A stretch of DNA of 15,621 bases from Methyloglobulus sp. (GTDB lineage Bacteria; Pseudomonadota; Gammaproteobacteria; Methylococcales; Methylomonadaceae): contig JABFSV010000389.1 of the NCBI GenBank assembly GCA_013140405.1, forward strand, positions 1 through 15,621, in the 5' to 3' direction. The notes below the pieces were generated by a model, which saw only the letters and a program-made list of their open reading frames with translations, searched no databases and was not told where the DNA came from. Positions within the stretch are counted from its first letter, which is position 1, and every line of letters starts with the position of its first letter. The position numbers and the translations under genes were made by a program. Positions 4,107 through 15,545 of this stretch are shown in pieces.

Positions 4107-4289
4107 TTATACGGGATAGATAAGGGAAACTTGAGCAGGTCGAATCCGAGCGGCTTTCGACACTGCCACTAAGAACGGAATCAATTTGCCGCCGCCCAAC
4201 CTGCCGTAGGTCTTAACCAGGGATTCCATAACAAACGCCGTATAGTATTGCGTGCAATCAATCACTAAATAGCGTGGTTGTGATGCCAT
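4107..4289 (-). CDS. Small ORF of unknown function, 60 residues, abutting the GMC oxidoreductase
   Basis: I do not recognise this protein. It starts MASQPRYLVIDCTQYY and ends in a basic-hydrophobic tail (ARIRPAQVSLIYPV). Its ATG at 4289 directly follows the TAA of the GMC oxidoreductase (TAAATG), a classic coupling arrangement, and it ends 26 bases before the GTG of the next glycosyltransferase. Without this ORF that spacing would leave a gap of about 200 bases in an otherwise tightly packed operon. There is no signal peptide. Residues 34-45 (GKLIPFLVAVSK, with preceding GRLGGG) are mildly hydrophobic but too short to be a confident membrane helix. It could be a real small accessory protein of the oxidoreductase, or the remnant of a longer gene. 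The position argues for the former; the lack of recognisable homology leaves it open. Confidence 0.5.
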   Translation of the reverse strand: MASQPRYLVIDCTQYYTAFVMESLVKTYGRLGGGKLIPFLVAVSKAARIRPAQVSLIYPV

Positions 4290-5744
4290 TTATGATAGAT
4301 GCTTGGCAAGCCTGAGGGCGAGTTCGACTATGGTAAACGTCGGGTTTGTCCCGCCGCCAGTCGAAAAAACGCTGCTGCCGCCGATATATAAATTGTCAAT
4401 CCCAAAAACCTTGCAGTCCTTATCAACAACGCCATACTCAGGGCTTTTGGACATTCTTGTCGTACCAATGCTATGGCAATGATAACCTACCGGGATCTTT
4501 GCGTTTTCGTCCAAGATGTATGATGCCAATTGGACTCGGCCATAATCCTGGCGGGCAAATTCTTTGGCCAATTCAATCCCTATAGTCCGTATTGTCCTTT
4601 TGTCCAACTCATTCATTTGCCAAGAAAGATTGACACGGCGCAAACCAAAGCTGTCCGTTTCTTTGTCGAGGGAGACCCTGCTGTTTTTGTTAGGCGACTG
4701 TTCCATCAACGTACCCAAAATGCCGTCGCCAGGGCATTGAAAATCTACAAATTTACGTGACAATTCCGTTATCTCGTCCCATTTGCAGACATTGTTCCTG
4801 ATATATTTTCTAAGTTCTTTTGACCGACCGCCACCTGTAGGGGGGTCAGGCGAAATGCTCATGGAAACATTGCCGTTGCCTATTTTGTGCTCCAGCGAAA
4901 ATTGGCTGTCGGTATAAAGGCTGAGGCCCTTTTTCATGTTTTTCCAATATTTTGGATTGCCGGAAAAAAAGCCATAATTAATATTATAGTGTTCCATAAA
5001 ACATCGACCCACAAAATCTGACTGGTTGCCGATGCCTCCTTTAAGTTGGGTATCGCAGTTCAAAAGCATTCTTGCGTTCTCAATCGCGCCGAGAGCGATT
5101 ACGATATTTTTGCCAGTGAACGTAAAGCGTTTTTTGCCGTAATCCATTACCACCAGTTCTGTCACGCTGCTCAGTTCTTTATTCAGCCTGACATCAATCA
5201 GGTTGGCGTTGATGAAAAGGCTGATATTACCGGATACTTCAATTTCGGCGCGGTATTTATCGCCGAATCGGGTAGGTGCGCTTATTGCGTAACGGTCTGG
5301 GATAAATTTGCCAGAAGTCCAGTTCGATATGTCGGCTGCCGTAAAGTCTCCGCTGATGTCTACAACGGATTTGGCTTCTGCCTCATAATTTGCCAAGTCA
5401 CTTTTTTGTATAGGCCATCCCGGCAACTCAAAAAAATCTCTTTCCATAAAGTCCACTTCGTCTAAAGGCTTGCATCGGCCTGACCAATGGTTTGTCGTGC
5501 CACCTAAATATCTAAGGCGGCAGGTATCCAAGCCCCAATATTCCATGCCAGTGTTTTTGCCTTTGTAGCAATCATACGATTGGTCGGAATATTCAAATCC
5601 ACCCGCTTCCAGCAAGGCAACTTTTTTGCCAGCCCTAGCCAAGTAAACGGCTAACGTAATCCCTGCCGCACCGGCACCGCAAATACAAACGTCGTAGTCT
5701 GCCGTTTTTACATTTTTTGTGGCCGTATCTAAATCAATAATCAT
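4290..5744 (-). CDS. GMC-family FAD-dependent oxidoreductase
   Basis: A 484-residue glucose-methanol-choline family flavoenzyme, which oxidises alcohols or sugar hydroxyls to aldehydes or ketones using FAD. The ADP-binding Rossmann motif GAGAAG (23-28) and the ribose-binding LLEAGG (44-49) are at the N-terminus. LGGTTNHWSGRCKPLD (80-95) matches the flavin-binding loop of bacterial GMC enzymes, and FMERDFFELPGWPI (99-112) follows. The C-terminal signature YHCHSIGTTRMS (421-432) supplies His424 and STGGGTNPTFTI (461-472) supplies Asn467, the usual active-site pair. The length is ordinary. There is no N-terminal export signal, but its first codons overlap by 11 bases the end of a tiny Tat-signal ORF, so co-export is possible. 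Its substrate is not determinable; the surrounding glycan genes suggest a sugar or glycan hydroxyl, which is inference. A GGA eight bases upstream may serve as the ribosome binding site. Confidence 0.92.
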   Translation of the reverse strand: MIIDLDTATKNVKTADYDVCICGAGAAGITLAVYLARAGKKVALLEAGGFEYSDQSYDCYKGKNTGMEYWGLDTCRLRYLGGTTNHWSGRCKPLDEVDFMERDFFELPGWPIQKSDLANYEAEAKSVVDISGDFTAADISNWTSGKFIPDRYAISAPTRFGDKYRAEIEVSGNISLFINANLIDVRLNKELSSVTELVVMDYGKKRFTFTGKNIVIALGAIENARMLLNCDTQLKGGIGNQSDFVGRCFMEHYNINYGFFSGNPKYWKNMKKGLSLYTDSQFSLEHKIGNGNVSMSISPDPPTGGGRSKELRKYIRNNVCKWDEITELSRKFVDFQCPGDGILGTLMEQSPNKNSRVSLDKETDSFGLRRVNLSWQMNELDKRTIRTIGIELAKEFARQDYGRVQLASYILDENAKIPVGYHCHSIGTTRMSKSPEYGVVDKDCKVFGIDNLYIGGSSVFSTGGGTNPTFTIVELALRLAKHLS

Positions 5745-5913
5745 TTGTTGAATCCAAGTCCGATTTCAGTAAGACCCAACCATTCCTGATAATAAATTCG
5801 TCATCGTCAAAATAATCGTCAAATGCAATTAAGTTTGGGAATAATTTTTTTGATAACCCAAGAGCCACAGTAACGCTCAATAAATTACGCAGAAATTTTC
5901 TTCTATTTGTCAT
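5734..5913 (-). CDS. 59-residue twin-arginine (Tat) signal-bearing small protein upstream of the GMC oxidoreductase
   Basis: This short ORF starts at ATG 5913 and ends at TGA 5736-5734, overlapping the GMC oxidoreductase start by 11 bases. The N-terminus TNRRKFLRN (2-10) closely fits the Tat consensus S/T-R-R-x-F-L-K. A short, moderately hydrophobic stretch follows (LLSVTVALGL, 11-20), then SKK (21-23), the kind of basic residues that disfavour Sec export. The rest is strongly acidic (FDDYFDDDEF, 31-40), followed by IIRNGWVLLKSDL (41-53). No clear A-x-A cleavage site is seen. Tat-signalled small subunits escort signal-less GMC subunits in gluconate- and fructose-dehydrogenase-type complexes, but those subunits are much longer, so this is at most a minimal analogue. 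AGGA just before the ATG, or AAGGGA further up, could be the ribosome binding site. Confidence 0.7.
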   Translation of the reverse strand: MTNRRKFLRNLLSVTVALGLSKKLFPNLIAFDDYFDDDEFIIRNGWVLLKSDLDSTNDY

Positions 5914-6166: not shown

Positions 6167-7033
6167 TTATTTCCAAGTTAAGGCGTTGGTCTTTGCTATC
6201 GTGGCGAAGTTGTCACAGCTTATTTCCAAGCCCAGCCATGTGCCCAAGGTGTTCAAATCATCATTGAAAATAGTTGTTAGCTTTTCGATGTGTTTTTTGT
6301 CCAACTCTGGCCGATTTTGCATGGTCAGGTTGTTTTTGACGCGATCCCGAATGAATTGCGGGATCAAATGCCGCCGCAGGAAGGTCATCAGGTTAGATTC
6401 GACCAATAACTCATATCCCCAAAAGCGTTTGATCCGTTCGTTGGAGACATTTTGCAATGCAATGTTATCGTGCCAAGTGACGGGTTGGGTGTAACCGATG
6501 AACCGGGCTATTTTTTCAAGTTCTTGTTGAGGTTGGGATTTCACAGCTTCAAAAAAAATCGGTAAGATATTCGTCTTGCCATAGGCTTGGATATAAGGTT
6601 CAAGCTGTCTTGCATAACAACTGTACGCGGCCAATTCCTCGTATTGGTCTACCGCTTGGTTAATATCACAGCTAAAGACATTTTGCGACCATTGGTGGAT
6701 ATAGTGCGAAACCAATCGGTCGATAGGATGGCGCATGACATAAATGAGCTTTACGGACGGCAAATAAGCGGACATCCGTTGGATGCACTGGGGATAAGTC
6801 GGCAACTTGGTGTAATGGGTGCTGGATTCACCGCATAGGTCGCCGGGTTGGGCATCTTTGAAAAGGGCTTCGTACCAGTTTAATCCGCGTGCATATTGGT
6901 CGTCATCACTGAAGAAATTAGGTTCTTTTGGTGTACTCATAAAAATGCCCGGCTGGTGCGCCAACTGGGTATGGAGCGAACTGGTCGCGCATTTCATTGC
7001 GCCGACAATAATAAAGTCAGGCTTATTTGCCAT
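6167..7033 (-). CDS. PAPS-dependent sulfotransferase (heparan-sulfotransferase-like superfamily)
   Basis: A 288-residue cytosolic enzyme predicted to move sulfate from PAPS to a hydroxyl or amino group of a sugar. The 5'-phosphosulfate-binding loop is FIIVGAMKCATSS (7-19) with Lys14. The family motif STPKEPNFF (33-41) carries Glu37, which lines up with the catalytic glutamate of glycosaminoglycan sulfotransferases. The 3'-phosphate-binding element is YVMRHPIDRLVSHY (98-111) with Arg101 and Ser109. The length is typical. The ATG overlaps the 3' end of the GT2 gene by 11 bases, and a GGA five bases upstream may serve as ribosome binding site. It shares the whole N-terminal layout with the sulfotransferase at 11461-12435, to the residue (Lys14, Glu37, Arg101, Ser109 in both), so they are paralogues. 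The acceptor is inferred to be the repeat unit made by this locus. Confidence 0.9.
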   Translation of the reverse strand: MANKPDFIIVGAMKCATSSLHTQLAHQPGIFMSTPKEPNFFSDDDQYARGLNWYEALFKDAQPGDLCGESSTHYTKLPTYPQCIQRMSAYLPSVKLIYVMRHPIDRLVSHYIHQWSQNVFSCDINQAVDQYEELAAYSCYARQLEPYIQAYGKTNILPIFFEAVKSQPQQELEKIARFIGYTQPVTWHDNIALQNVSNERIKRFWGYELLVESNLMTFLRRHLIPQFIRDRVKNNLTMQNRPELDKKHIEKLTTIFNDDLNTLGTWLGLEISCDNFATIAKTNALTWK

Positions 7034-8092: not shown

Positions 8093-8968
8093 TTAGGCAT
8101 TTGAGTTATTGGCGTATTCTTCCTTGAGTTTTCTTAAATGACCATTGCAAATGTCTTGGAAGGCCGTGATGTCTTCTGGATTGATATTTTCAGGCAGGGC
8201 TGGTGCGACATTTGAACGGTTGCTACGGGTGCCTACCATTGTTGAAAGCACCTCCCTACCCACGGGTATATTCAACTGGCGAAATAATTGTTCTAATGCA
8301 TGTATATCATTGAATGCATTGGTGTCGATATGGACGACCGGTACTGATGGGTATTTAGCCGAGAAAGCAATCATTCGAGCCTCAATCTCATACCAATACC
8401 AAAGGCATTTGAAAAAATCATGTTGAAACCGTTCGTCGGTATCCAGTAACTCTGAAAGATTCAGGCTATTTTTCGCTGCTCGGTAGTTAAGCGTCCAATC
8501 ATCACCAATGGGAGTTCCTGGAATGTTACCCCGCAAGTAATAACTGTTGCTGACTTCGATGGGGTCGCGGGTCAAATGGATCAGCCTTAATTTTGAGCCA
8601 AAAGTCTTATACGCAAAATCACCGAAACTCTTGATAAACATATGGCTTGATTCTATGTACCAAGTAGAGAATGCCGAAGCCCAAAATATATGGGGCAGTT
8701 TTCTCAAGTAAAATTGGTTTTTGGCGGGCTTTTCATCCCCCTGATTATAAGAAATCATGATATCCCCGTTCATCATGGGATGGGGCTCGTGCAGGGATTC
8801 GCACTTAGGGATTTTAGCGCAAATATTGGCTAAGGTATTCGTGCCGCAACGTCCCGTGCTGACAACAAATACATATTCCTTTGCGGAACTTGCGAGCAAA
8901 CGCCCGACATTACGGGCAACAAATGCCGTGAAAAAATTAACTTTGATCCGTTTAAAAACCGATGTCAT
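8093..8968 (-). CDS. Sulfotransferase family protein, lineage distinct from the other two
   Basis: A 291-residue predicted PAPS-dependent sulfotransferase. The phosphosulfate loop is VVSTGRCGTNTL (35-46), with Arg40 where the other two enzymes of this locus have Lys. HEPHP follows (60-64), and the 3'-phosphate element is LIHLTRDPIEVSNSYY (129-144) with Arg134 and Ser142. The KEP-x-F-F catalytic motif of the two paralogues is absent, so this is a different branch of the superfamily and probably sulfates another position. I chose ATG 8968 because GGAA lies seven bases upstream. An in-frame ATG at 9046 would add 26 residues without clear homology, and its AAGG sits only one base from the codon. 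A protein of this class could act on a small sugar acceptor; the target is inferred from the cluster. Confidence 0.82.
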   Translation of the reverse strand: MTSVFKRIKVNFFTAFVARNVGRLLASSAKEYVFVVSTGRCGTNTLANICAKIPKCESLHEPHPMMNGDIMISYNQGDEKPAKNQFYLRKLPHIFWASAFSTWYIESSHMFIKSFGDFAYKTFGSKLRLIHLTRDPIEVSNSYYLRGNIPGTPIGDDWTLNYRAAKNSLNLSELLDTDERFQHDFFKCLWYWYEIEARMIAFSAKYPSVPVVHIDTNAFNDIHALEQLFRQLNIPVGREVLSTMVGTRSNRSNVAPALPENINPEDITAFQDICNGHLRKLKEEYANNSNA

Positions 8969-8975
8969 ATTGAAT

Positions 8976-8979
8976 TTCC
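8976..8979 (-). promoter_or_regulatory. Ribosome binding site deciding the sulfotransferase start
   Basis: GGAA on the minus strand, seven bases before ATG 8968. It is the best-spaced Shine-Dalgarno element near this gene's 5' end and favours 8968 over the upstream ATG at 9046. Confidence 0.55.
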
Positions 8980-9128
8980 AATTATTAGCCTTTGCATAAA
9001 AATTATACACTCTATACAAGTTATTTATGTTGTTTAGCCAAACCATACCTTATATTACTGGCTATAAGGCAAGCGTTACGTATTGTTATGAATCTGCCCC
9101 AATAAAGCGGTCATCAGCCCAAAAAATT

Positions 9129-11460: not shown

Positions 11461-12435
11461 CTAATTTCGATTTTTTTGTTGCCACGATGACAAGTCGCGC
11501 TTCCAGAAATCTTCCAATCCTATAATCTCGTCTTTGAAAATTTCATGTAAATAGCCCTCGGCGCGAGGGCTCATTTTTGCTGGCCGCGACAGGTTGTTCG
11601 TTTTTTTGAACAGCAAGGTGTAGCAATCTAAGAGTCGTTTCTTAATTGCCATAGGGGTCATCTGGATAAGTTTACGGCCAATCGGATTACTTTTTACTTT
11701 GCTGACAAGGCCTTGCCTTGTAATTTCTGCGTCGGCATACTGAAAGTGTTCACTAGAGATGTTTTCCCTGACTTCTTCTGTGGTTCGCATTTCGCTAATG
11801 TCCAAATTCAAAAACTCGCAGACATCCACCATCACCTTATCAGGATTTTCTACTAATTCTTTGAAATCTAAAAGTAATAGCTGGCTGCGGTCAAATGCAC
11901 ATAAATAATTATTGATTTGCGTCATGTATCGGCTACCGTCAAGCAAGGTTCTTGGGTCGTCTGGCAAATGTTTATCAAAAGGTGCAAAAAATTGTACTCT
12001 ACTGCATCGATTAGGGTATAAGTCCGGGAACAAGCATTCGTCAAATGTCCTGTTGACATTGAAGTTTCGGGTGCAGTTCTGGTAGTTTTTGACCAGTTGT
12101 GTGTAAAAAGAATAAGCGCGATTTACGGGTTCCCTTAGCACGTAAATCAATTTCGCTTGCGGTACGGTATTGTGCATTCTTGATACGGTATGGGGGAAAA
12201 GGGTGGTCAATGTGTACAGTGTGGAGGCTTCCCCACAAAGTTGGCTATCGGTTGCCGATGCGAACAGGTTGGCATACCAGTCCAGCCCTTTTTCATATAT
12301 ATCGTCCCTGGCAAAAAACTCAGGTTCCTTGGGGGTACTCATAAACACCCTAGGGTGGTTGGCCAGTTTTTTATATAGAGTTGTCGTGCCGCACTTGGCG
12401 GCGCCGATAATGATGAAGTCGGGTAATCTGGCCAT
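11461..12435 (-). CDS. PAPS-dependent sulfotransferase (heparan-sulfotransferase-like superfamily)
   Basis: A 324-residue predicted sulfotransferase. The 5'-phosphosulfate loop is FIIIGAAKCGTTTLY (7-21) with Lys14. STPKEPEFF (33-41) contains Glu37, matching the catalytic glutamate of glycosaminoglycan sulfotransferases. LCGEAST (66-72) and the 3'-phosphate element YVLREPVNRAYSFY (98-111), with Arg101 and Ser109, follow. It is paralogous to the enzyme at 6167-7033 over the first 110 residues, but has a longer middle (about 120-165) and a different C-terminal end, so the acceptor specificity probably differs. The ATG overlaps the TAA stop of wzx by one base (TAATG), tying sulfation to the export gene in one operon. 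Its role is inferred to be sulfation of the repeat unit before flipping, because PAPS is cytosolic. Confidence 0.91.
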   Translation of the reverse strand: MARLPDFIIIGAAKCGTTTLYKKLANHPRVFMSTPKEPEFFARDDIYEKGLDWYANLFASATDSQLCGEASTLYTLTTLFPHTVSRMHNTVPQAKLIYVLREPVNRAYSFYTQLVKNYQNCTRNFNVNRTFDECLFPDLYPNRCSRVQFFAPFDKHLPDDPRTLLDGSRYMTQINNYLCAFDRSQLLLLDFKELVENPDKVMVDVCEFLNLDISEMRTTEEVRENISSEHFQYADAEITRQGLVSKVKSNPIGRKLIQMTPMAIKKRLLDCYTLLFKKTNNLSRPAKMSPRAEGYLHEIFKDEIIGLEDFWKRDLSSWQQKNRN

Positions 12436-13799
12436 TAAAAATAAATACCTGCTGCCAGTTTGCCTAGATAAGCTCCCAAGAACAACATGGGAAGCATCAG
12501 TAATTCTTTACCTAAATGGAAAAAAAAGTGAATTTTCATAAATATTCCAGAAATAACCAAGCGTATGAGGGGTGTGCAAGCTATTGCCCAGATTGCGCCA
12601 CGCAAGCCATATTCCATATAGGCCAATGGAAGCGTTGTGTACAAGGCGAGCGTTTGGCTGCCAACCATTAAAGTGAACATTGCGGACCGCCCATGTGCCA
12701 TGAAACATTGCCCCGCCAGCGTAAAACCCACGCTTGCCATAGACAAGGCCAGGATTTGCAGCATCCATCCGGCTTCGTGATACCTGTTGTCATACAAAAG
12801 ATCAACGACCCGACCGCCAGCAGTAAATAAAAACCCTGACGAGAACATGGCGACAGCATCAATCCGATGGCGAATTTTATAGTAAACTTGTTTAAGCCGC
12901 TCAGGACGGTTTCTTACCGTGTCACTTAAAACGGGATAAAAAACGGAAGAAAGCAGCTTGCTTAATACGTCTTTGACCGCGTTGGCGAGGAAAAACGCCA
13001 CCGTGTAAACCCCAAGCAGTTCTGGCGTGATAAAAGCGCCTAACAGTAGGCGGTCGCCCTGGTTAAATAAAAATCCCAAAATAGAAGACACCAATATCCA
13101 TCGACCAAAATGGGCTATGTCGGTTACGGTTTCCTTGTCCCAGGCAAAGCGGCAACGCTCCTTGATGATAAGGTGGGAAAGCAACAACTTGGTGGTCGAG
13201 GTGACGATATTGCCGGAAGCCAGTGCGTAAACCGTCCTTTCATGCCAAGCAATGTAAATAATGACCGCTAACCCTAAAATTTGGCTGGTAATTTCAATAA
13301 AAACCGATTTGCCCAATTGTAGCTTTCTATTCAGCAAGATCAAGTGGATCGAGTTAAAGCTGGATATGAAAACGCCCATTGCGATTATGCCCAACAAGAA
13401 GGGCAAATCTTTATTAGCATAAACCATCGTTTGGGGGATAAATCCTAATACGTTCGCTTGATATAGCCCAAAGCTGGTCAATAAAACCAGCCCGCACACC
13501 GAAATTCCCCGCAAAATTTGGATAGTCCACACCGTATTGAGAAAGACGGGGTCTTCCCCCCTTTTGTTCTGCACTACATTTTGCGAAATCCCGATATCTG
13601 AAATCATGCTCAGGCCCGTCATGATGGCATTTACAATCGCCATAACGCCAAACATTTCAGGGACTAACAAACGGGTCAGGATCAGGTTGCCTCCAAAACG
13701 GATGGCCTGGGACGAAAGATGGCCAACCAAGGCCCAGCGGCTTGCAGCAAAAGCACGCTTTTTTAAAGTTTTTGGCTTTGCTTGCGCTTGCATCGGCAT
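12435..13799 (-). CDS. wzx: Wzx-type polysaccharide flippase
   Basis: An integral membrane protein of 454 residues, of the MOP exporter superfamily, expected to flip the undecaprenyl-diphosphate-linked repeat unit from the cytoplasmic to the periplasmic leaflet. The N-terminal SRWALVGHLSSQAIRFGGNL and LTRLLVPEMFGVMAIVNA blocks (first 60 residues), then SDIGISQNVVQNKR, are the classic opening of the family. About a dozen hydrophobic segments follow at regular spacing, and the length is typical. I chose ATG 13799. A TTG at 13817 would add six residues (LLQNRM context) and is less likely. No good ribosome binding site precedes 13799, but a seven-codon mini-ORF ends two bases upstream of it. It is the first gene of the minus-strand run, so the operon promoter should lie just upstream. 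Wzx substrate specificity is not predictable. Confidence 0.9.
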   Translation of the reverse strand: MPMQAQAKPKTLKKRAFAASRWALVGHLSSQAIRFGGNLILTRLLVPEMFGVMAIVNAIMTGLSMISDIGISQNVVQNKRGEDPVFLNTVWTIQILRGISVCGLVLLTSFGLYQANVLGFIPQTMVYANKDLPFLLGIIAMGVFISSFNSIHLILLNRKLQLGKSVFIEITSQILGLAVIIYIAWHERTVYALASGNIVTSTTKLLLSHLIIKERCRFAWDKETVTDIAHFGRWILVSSILGFLFNQGDRLLLGAFITPELLGVYTVAFFLANAVKDVLSKLLSSVFYPVLSDTVRNRPERLKQVYYKIRHRIDAVAMFSSGFLFTAGGRVVDLLYDNRYHEAGWMLQILALSMASVGFTLAGQCFMAHGRSAMFTLMVGSQTLALYTTLPLAYMEYGLRGAIWAIACTPLIRLVISGIFMKIHFFFHLGKELLMLPMLFLGAYLGKLAAGIYF

Positions 13800-13800
13800 T

Positions 13801-13824
13801 CTATTTTGCAGAAGCAATTGGCAT
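13801..13824 (-). other. Possible seven-codon leader mini-ORF before wzx
   Basis: ATG 13824 opens a frame encoding MPIASAK and closes with TAG one base before the wzx ATG (TAGAATG). AGGG lies five bases before its ATG, the best ribosome binding site near the wzx start. It could allow coupled initiation at wzx. The same AGGG adjoins a TATAAT box, so if transcription starts from that box the site would be missing from the mRNA. This is tentative. Confidence 0.25.
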
Positions 13825-14054: not shown

Positions 14055-15545
14055 ATGTCTGAATTAATTCGTACTTTTATTGTTGTTGTCATGTTAAGTG
14101 GAGCCACATTTTGGGTCACCCAAAAGGCATTGCCTGAGTTTGTCCCCGTAAAGGAATTTAAGCGCTGGCGAAACGCCTGGTTAATCCTTGTTGTCGCCGC
14201 TTTTTTTGCCCAGTCGATTTGGTTACTGTTTACAATTATAACCGCTTTTTGCATTTTTTTTGTCTCATCAAAGCAAAAAGAACGGGTCATATATTATTTG
14301 TTGTTGCTTTGCGCGTTGCCGATGTTTCCAGTCGAAATACCGGGCTTTGCAGGCATACGCTACATTATCAATGTTAATTATGTACGCTTGTTAACTCTAG
14401 TGTTATTGCTGGGAATATACTTAAAAAATATTGGTAAAATTCGTTTATTTTATTTTAAATCAGATGCTTATATTTTAGCGTTTGTGGTCTTGACAAGCTA
14501 TCTTTCATTCCGTGACAACTCATTTACGAACGGCCTAAGAGAATGCTTGATGAATATCTTGGATATCCTGATACCTTATCTTGTATTAAGCCGATTTATA
14601 GACAATAAGGATCAACTGAATCGGGCATTTGTGGCGTTATTGATTGGGATTGCGCCGTTCGCATTGATGGGCATTTTTGAGACCCTCAAAAGTTGGCATC
14701 TTTTTGTTGCCTTGAAAAGTAGTTATTCTTGGGGAAAAGGCGGTTACGACATCAGGGATGGTTCCTTAAGGGCTTCCGCCATATTTGCAAGCCCAATTGT
14801 GTTGGGATATGTCCTTGCCATCGCATTCGGCTTGTTGCTGTATTTACAGCCCCTCATTAAGAATCAACGCTTTGTCATTTTGGCAGGGCTTACCATTTTT
14901 GTAGGCCTGTTGGCGACAGTTGCCCGTGGCCCCTGGATAGGCTTTGCCTTTTTGTGTTGCGCCTATATGTGGACAGGCCGTGAGGCGGTCAAAAAAATCG
15001 CTTTGTGGGGAGTGGGCGTTGTCGCAATGTTACCGATCTTGGCCGTGACGCCTTATGGCGAAAAGTTTATCAATCTATTGCCTTTTATTGGCACTACCCG
15101 TGCCGACACGGTTGACTACAGGAAGCGGCTTATTGAAAATGCGTGGATTGTTTTTAAACGGCATCCTTGGTTGGGTTCAACTACCTATCGTGAAACACCT
15201 GAAATGGAGAGTATGCGCCAGGGGCAAGGTATTATCGACTTGGTAAACTCGTACATTGGCCTCGTGTTGCCTTATGGCATTGTGGGGTTGTCGCTGTTTT
15301 TGATTATATTCCTTGGGCTATCGTACCGTTGCTATTTCATACTTAAACGGATTCCGCCCTCGGAAGTTGACCTTCTCCGCATGGGGCGGGCCTTATTTGC
15401 AATTTTGGCGAGCATCATGCTGATGATAGCCACAGTTAGCTCGATAGATTATATTCCGGTGCTGTATTGGACTTTTGCCGCCATTGTGGCCGCATACCTT
15501 AAAGTTGTTGAAAATACGATCAGGCAGCATAGGGTCGGCATTTAA
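14055..15545 (+). CDS. wzy: O-antigen polymerase/ligase family membrane protein (Wzy-like)
   Basis: A 496-residue polytopic inner-membrane protein, with about ten to twelve hydrophobic segments, for example 6-21, 42-70, 78-92, 107-123, 137-150, 190-208, 242-266, 272-290, 316-334, 400-424 and 447-463. It carries the Wzy_C/O-antigen-ligase signature: LLATVARGPWIGF (285-297), with the Arg-Gly pair at 291-292, then a long periplasmic loop (about 336-400) containing DTVDYRKRLIENAW (351-364) and FKRHPWLGSTTY (367-378). The family either polymerises lipid-linked repeat units or ligates glycan to lipid A core or protein. With an adjacent flippase and many glycosyltransferases, polymerase is the likelier role, but sequence alone cannot separate the two. 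It is transcribed away from wzx, so it has its own promoter. No strong ribosome binding site precedes the ATG. No terminator is seen after its TAA. Confidence 0.85.
   Translation: MSELIRTFIVVVMLSGATFWVTQKALPEFVPVKEFKRWRNAWLILVVAAFFAQSIWLLFTIITAFCIFFVSSKQKERVIYYLLLLCALPMFPVEIPGFAGIRYIINVNYVRLLTLVLLLGIYLKNIGKIRLFYFKSDAYILAFVVLTSYLSFRDNSFTNGLRECLMNILDILIPYLVLSRFIDNKDQLNRAFVALLIGIAPFALMGIFETLKSWHLFVALKSSYSWGKGGYDIRDGSLRASAIFASPIVLGYVLAIAFGLLLYLQPLIKNQRFVILAGLTIFVGLLATVARGPWIGFAFLCCAYMWTGREAVKKIALWGVGVVAMLPILAVTPYGEKFINLLPFIGTTRADTVDYRKRLIENAWIVFKRHPWLGSTTYRETPEMESMRQGQGIIDLVNSYIGLVLPYGIVGLSLFLIIFLGLSYRCYFILKRIPPSEVDLLRMGRALFAILASIMLMIATVSSIDYIPVLYWTFAAIVAAYLKVVENTIRQHRVGI

Follow-up and report, generated by a model that had tools for sequence, protein, structure and literature searches.

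A short twin-arginine protein paired with a GMC oxidoreductase in exopolysaccharide loci: a candidate minimal Tat hitchhiker

A gene pair in a Methyloglobulus locus

The window, by which we mean the whole 15,621-nucleotide stretch of Methyloglobulus sp. DNA analyzed here, carries on its minus strand a gene for a 59-residue protein whose end overlaps the start of a gene for a GMC oxidoreductase (Table 1). A preliminary description of this DNA had noted Arg4-Arg5 of the small protein within the segment TNRRKFL, the 11-base overlap and the lack of an export signal on the flavoenzyme, all of which we confirmed. The FAD-binding motif of the enzyme lies ~22 residues from its start, which leaves no room for a signal peptide, and both its GxGxxG FAD-binding start and its C-terminal domain (PF05199, for which 71.7 bits compares with a cut-off of 24.6) are features of the GMC family. 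The arrangement, in which the gene for a small Tat-signaled subunit adjoins that for a signal-less GMC enzyme, is of the hitchhiker type, and the overlap may couple the translation of the two genes. Directly after the GMC stop codon starts a 60-amino-acid ORF (positions 4107–4289, minus strand), for which Pfam gave no match and the 80 GMC loci described below contained no relative.

The surrounding genes are of an exopolysaccharide (EPS) type. In addition to a flippase and a polymerase- or ligase-like protein, which we take to be of the Wzx and Wzy/O-antigen-ligase types, respectively, the neighbors include a GT25-type glycosyltransferase, a pyruvyltransferase, other proteins that are presumably glycosyltransferases, and three sulfotransferase-like proteins, of which one falls below the Pfam cut-offs. 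This last protein (8093–9046, minus strand) scored 17.2 bits against cut-offs of 22 and 27 and had no relative in the 80 GMC loci. TatC is present in the same genome.

Table 1. Positions of the gene pair, its candidate docking segment and selected neighbors in the window.
Feature	Positions	Strand	Basis and remarks
Candidate Tat escort, 59 aa, ATG start	5734..5913	minus	RR signal ~residues 1–22, variable linker, C-terminal EFIIRNGWVLLKSDL motif
GMC oxidoreductase, 484 aa, no signal peptide	4290..5744	minus	PF05199, 71.7 bits; fold matches of relatives
Overlap of small ORF and GMC ORF, 11 bases	5734..5744	minus	
Docking-hairpin candidate EFIIRNGWVLLKSDL, residues 39–53	5755..5799	minus	Translation; G and W invariant in 36 members; strand-turn-strand in AlphaFold models
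Sulfotransferase, upstream of the pair	6167..7033	minus	PF00685, 70.7 bits; relatives in 4/80 loci
Flippase, taken to be Wzx-type	12435..13817	minus	Relatives in 54/80 loci; Polysacc_synt families in neighbor scan
Protein taken to be Wzy/O-antigen-ligase-like	14055..15545	plus	Relatives in 65/80 loci; Wzy_C most frequent neighbor family

As expected of a Tat substrate, the small protein has a twin-arginine motif followed by a hydrophobic stretch, the best 15-residue hydropathy after the arginine pair being 1.43, below the family median of 1.77. The Tat signal that had been proposed for it was thus borne out by the motif and fell short by the model, since the protein scored 14.9 bits with TIGR01409, under the cut-off of 16.7. 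Among the 36 members of its family alignment, 11 matched TIGR01409 and 5 matched TIGR02811 (formate dehydrogenase region Tat target) at E ≤ 1; apart from these Tat signal models and TIGR02811, Pfam and NCBIfam scans of the family returned scattered weak matches. The window protein itself had no Pfam match at E ≤ 1, no Pfam small-subunit family was found for it or for the 36-member alignment, and a PDB search with it gave no meaningful homologue. A word search with the small protein recovered the protein itself and one relative of 68% identity, and a search with the 36-member alignment recovered 66 proteins at E ≤ 0.01, those with names being called 'hypothetical protein' or 'twin-arginine translocation signal domain-containing protein'.

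Conservation of the pair, its motifs and its setting

Using an alignment of the GMC enzyme, we scanned 84,980 species, with a single genome per species, confirmed 551 relatives and kept the best 80. Conservation of the small ORF beside homologous GMC genes had been named beforehand as a point on which the proposal would stand or fall, and the ORF was kept at 80 of these 80 best loci. A script located an RR...GW ORF directly upstream of the GMC gene at 79 of them, and the remaining locus (L061) has a KR version. By their labels, 55 of the best 80 loci belong to Pseudomonas or Pantoea and 25 to others, which include Methylocucumis, Methylophaga, Nitrosomonas, Methylotenera, Bradyrhizobium, Parvularcula and marine gammaproteobacteria. 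When the 80 loci were searched on both strands with the pattern RR(or KR)...[DNG]GW[VMIT][LIVFM], 81 of their 11,681 frames of 40–160 amino acids matched, of which 79 (from 79 loci) lay just before the GMC gene and 2 lay elsewhere; with 79 of 81 matches at the GMC start, the pairing is not a product of chance. Start codons were set by a fixed rule and the junction was measured at 79 of the 80 loci; the two genes overlapped by 4 bases in 54 cases, and the whole range ran from an overlap of 11 bases, found in two relatives as well as the window, to a gap of 26.

At one of these loci, that of Methylocucumis oryzae Sn10-6 (L028, 6001–7450), the GMC gene beside the small ORF appears split over two frames, with matches 2–333 and 329–484 in L004/L017, apparently through a sequencing error or decay.

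Within the 36-member alignment, R5, G45 and W46 are invariant and R4 is present in 90% or more of the members. Among the best 80 of the 551 loci the arginine pair reads RR in 79 and KR in 1, with F or L at +2 of the pair in 75, and the sequence NGWVL is exact in 60, as part of a C-terminal hydrophobic motif that typically reads [FY]VVxNGWVL. The two motifs are separated by an unconserved spacer (23–45 residues, counted from RR up to the fourth residue ahead of the motif), and 6–21 residues follow GWVL. In 23 Pseudomonas loci the median dN/dS of the small gene was 0.24, with 81 of 87 non-independent pairs (dS 0.05–1.2, last four codons left out) below 0.5, which shows that the small protein is under purifying selection in these relatives.

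The preliminary description had pictured an acidic tail docking on the GMC surface. The acidic stretch of the window protein, DDYFDDDE (residues 32–39), belongs to the variable linker and is no shared feature of the family: across the 80 loci the net charge of the 14 residues that precede the motif lies between an excess of 3 basic and an excess of 3 acidic residues, and the tails after the motif are neutral or basic in 70. Because the charge varies in this way and the conserved candidate for docking is the hydrophobic NGWVL motif, we rejected docking through the acidic stretch.

In AlphaFold models of two read-through fusions of relatives, the motif was predicted as strand-turn-strand, that is, a β-hairpin, in both cases, with a pLDDT for the motif of ~80 in one model (in which the signal had ~28 and the join ~55) and ~43 in the other. 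The folded alignments were A7 and A13 only, which hold no separate small-protein rows, and the modeled motif is therefore backed by just two sequences. By sequence and fold, the nearest solved relatives of the GMC enzyme and its homologues are fructose dehydrogenase and FAD-glucose dehydrogenase (FAD-GDH); the VIA-align rows of the fold matches begin at model residue 67 or later, and the hairpin lies outside them. Joint alignments of the small protein and the GMC enzyme were set aside where MAFFT had placed the small-protein GW onto a GMC GW (A3, A5, A6 and A10–A12) or onto another GMC tryptophan (A9), and alignment A4 was good but holds no GMC rows.

The setting of the pair is of an EPS type at most of the 80 loci: EPS-type neighbors, counted as a relative of at least one EPS-type protein of the window (phmmer, E ≤ 1e-5; GMC loci only), were present at 71. 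A Pfam scan of neighboring genes, which covered 111 of 150 listed ORFs in 13 of 17 chosen loci, was led by the Wzy_C, Glycos_transf_2 and Polysacc_synt families. The Wzy-like protein had relatives at more of the GMC loci than any other window protein searched. The sulfated polysaccharide that had been suggested as the setting of the pair does not hold as a general feature, because sulfotransferase relatives occur near the pair at only 4 of the 80 loci.

Longer relatives and more distant GMC genes

Several more distant GMC genes (L005, L006, L119, L120, L122, L124, L125 and L129) are accompanied by long-form small subunits of 128–144 amino acids, for which no Pfam family was found at cut-off. 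Like the window protein, the long forms have an RR start, a C-terminal GW motif and a gene that adjoins the GMC gene; unlike it, they carry ~70 extra residues in the middle of the protein and a C-terminal extension, SxTExxLC, ending in a DFxxG...GWxLSxTExxLC-like stretch. A profile of eight long forms matched the window protein over residues 1–32 (12.3 bits) and 33–50 (4.7 bits), both of them weak matches, which corresponded to profile positions 3–34 and 107–123 only and skipped the middle. When run against the frames of whole-genome loci, this profile found the window ORF at E 0.0015, and hhalign aligned the long and short profiles over the GW motif (89.9%, E 1.7e-6). Both ends of the window protein thus resemble those of a longer Tat-type small subunit, and the protein looks to be a long form minus its middle; the tree is unrooted, and the opposite course, in which the long form gained its middle, may have been taken instead. 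The long-form gene lies directly downstream of the GMC gene at L119 and L129, where the two overlap by 4 bases, and at L005 and L006, where gaps of 12 and 32 separate them; at L120, L122 and L124 it precedes the GMC gene.

In a quick tree of 56 GMC enzymes, the 37 rows with a short form all fell to the same side of a branch whose support was 88. Fifteen of the tree rows were at first without a partner; a long form was then found by pattern in five of these loci and by profile in three more (L123; L128, with 27.3 bits and NGL in place of NGW; and L008, with 28.6 bits), and the other seven had no partner by pattern or long-form profile. At L007, which is outside the tree, the profile revealed a further long form. 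At L008 the long form, in a minus-strand frame of 316 amino acids, appears to run into an extra C-terminal domain of ~150 residues.

We also sampled genomes by class and by order. Among the 369 genomes of the class sample, 19 had a GMC match at E ≤ 1e-60, and one GMC gene was examined in each of 18 of them (G395 was left out). The partner was a short form in six (G000, G319, G441, G472, G553 and G672) and a long form in eight (G332, G346, G411, G479, G503, G510, G536 and G667, of which G510 is weak and lacks the W), one GMC enzyme (G675) had an RR start of its own, and no partner was found in three (G481, G614 and G673, the flanks of the last two being masked or short). The order sample of 311 genomes contained 14 with a GMC match at E ≤ 1e-30, with short forms in G000 and G223 and long forms in G081, G122, G222 and G308; the other eight, all with distant GMC genes, had no partner by the long-form profile within flanks of ~1.5 kb. 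The small partner is not universal beyond the clade of the window. At L121 (1664–3316), a distant GMC enzyme has its own RR start (MNRRELITAWVAALFATR...) ahead of the FAD domain; a small ORF separate from the GMC gene was not seen at this locus.

Short forms also precede more distant GMC genes in two further families of a phylum sample (L134, L135, L140, L142 and L138). Matches of the short profile inside long frames, which we presume to be multicopper oxidases (L106, L136, L137 and L139) and an aldehyde dehydrogenase (L141), were taken as a coincidental GW after a Tat signal. Neither the profile matches that were read nor, judged by length (up to 500 amino acids), the 120 listed matches included a natural fusion in which the entire small protein was joined to a GMC enzyme.

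A candidate escort for the GMC enzyme

The reading that we favor, and consider probable, sees in the small protein a minimal Tat hitchhiker with which the GMC enzyme, already folded, is exported; this enzyme would be a periplasmic, sugar-active one of EPS loci. For the pair we infer binding, co-export, a periplasmic location, a substrate and an electron acceptor. The small protein would begin with a twin-arginine signal, which a short linker of unconserved sequence joins to a β-hairpin (FIIR-NG-WVLL) and then a short helix at the C terminus. Binding of the hairpin to the GMC enzyme would take place in the cytoplasm, with the enzyme folded and loaded with FAD, and the signal would take the resulting complex through the Tat translocase. 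The enzyme would then act in the periplasm and most likely oxidize a sugar there, either in the EPS that the surrounding genes produce or in the lipid-linked repeat of this EPS.

Alternatively, the signal might stay uncleaved and hold the hairpin-bound GMC enzyme at the membrane, such that the job of the small protein is to anchor the enzyme near Wzx/Wzy. The window protein, in which no clear A-x-A cleavage site was seen, and the 21 of 80 family members whose spacers lack A-x-A are consistent with such a tether, but the other 59 spacers contain A-x-A, and the arginine pair, which is near-invariant in the family, is a hallmark of Tat recognition that plain anchors do not need. Moreover, an anchor inserted by Tat would place the enzyme outside anyway, and we consider simple tethering unlikely.

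We give only a small chance to a cytosolic role, in which the small protein, as a chaperone or activity subunit with a merely Tat-like N terminus, stabilizes the GMC enzyme with no export. The sub-threshold TIGR01409 score of the window protein would fit this explanation, as would the γ subunit of a known enzyme, which is also described as needed for folding of the catalytic subunit (PMC6719666, accessible part). It fits poorly with the persistence of RR at all but one of the 80 loci despite the drift of most of the signal and linker, with the F or L kept at +2, and with the distant GMC enzyme that has an RR start in cis instead. It is very improbable that the small ORF is a leader with a functionless peptide, translated only to adjust expression of the GMC gene that it overlaps. 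Overlap is common (4 bases in most measured pairs, rarely 11), but selection acts on the protein, its invariant residues extend from Bradyrhizobium to Pseudomonas, other pairs are separated by gaps of up to 26 nt, and the small subunit, upstream in the short clade, is encoded directly downstream of the GMC gene in the four measured long-form loci.

Returning to the hitchhiker reading, we compared the pair with known systems. The fructose dehydrogenase of Gluconobacter japonicus is a three-subunit membrane complex with heme c, and its small subunit is much longer than the window protein. It counts among the nearest known types (PDB 7W2J, 8JEJ and 9JQA). The preliminary description knew of no described system of this form; in fact, GMC dehydrogenases with a small subunit that acts as a Tat hitchhiker have been reported (PMC6719666 and PMC12542777, accessible parts), and hitchhiking in general is the subject of PMC10924467 (also in its accessible part). 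What survives of that claim concerns the reduced short family, for which we found no description in the open-access literature, weak evidence given that most subscription papers lie outside it.

The accessible part of PMC6719666 calls the small subunit (γ) of FAD-GDH a hitchhiker. Like the window protein, γ is a small Tat-signal subunit that partners a GMC catalytic subunit, and the GMC parts are related; a further likeness is the hydrophobic C-terminal tail of γ, which covers the interface like a lid. It differs in having five helices, a body for which the 59-residue window protein is too short, and the window protein lacks both this helical body of hitchhiker subunits and the middle of the long form. 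No PDB γ chain was matched at E ≤ 10 by either the short or the long form. FAD-GDH also differs in its 3Fe-4S loop cysteines: the equivalent stretch of the window enzyme (residues 130–184) has no cysteine, and hence none of the 3Fe-4S cysteines of the DET-type catalytic subunit. A Collimonas GMC oxidoreductase likewise has a small subunit with a Tat signal, and random mutagenesis indicated that the tat genes of Collimonas are essential for weathering; this enzyme differs from ours in converting glucose to gluconate and in having a cytochrome subunit (PMC12542777, accessible part).

As for a multiheme cytochrome c gene, no CxxCH was present in any window frame of 80 amino acids or more. Within 2.5 kb on the GMC strand, frames with CxxCH occurred at 11 of the 80 loci, each with one CxxCH only, and that of L080 we read as part of the N-terminal extension of a hexapeptide transferase. 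Among the 25 neighbor families listed (of 113) there was no cytochrome c, and a cytochrome c assembly family had two members.

A bolder version of the hitchhiker reading, which we advance tentatively as having a little less than an even chance, would make the small protein the smallest Tat hitchhiker known: a signal and a hairpin of 15–25 residues would export a 484-residue flavoenzyme in trans, having arisen by loss of the helical body from a longer, undescribed family of Tat small subunits, and the flavoenzyme, a sugar oxidase beside Wzx/Wzy, would oxidize EPS repeats after flipping. If the hitchhiker reading as such holds, a Tat escort needs little more than a signal and a short docking hairpin, which would provide a conserved, testable peptide–enzyme interface and possibly a tool for exporting folded enzymes in trans, and an FAD sugar oxidoreductase would act outside the membrane step of EPS assembly in many Pseudomonadota, including Pseudomonas. 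The KR locus (L061, 5797–5988), the sole one of the 80, reads SKRALLK at this site and constitutes a natural test of Tat tolerance.
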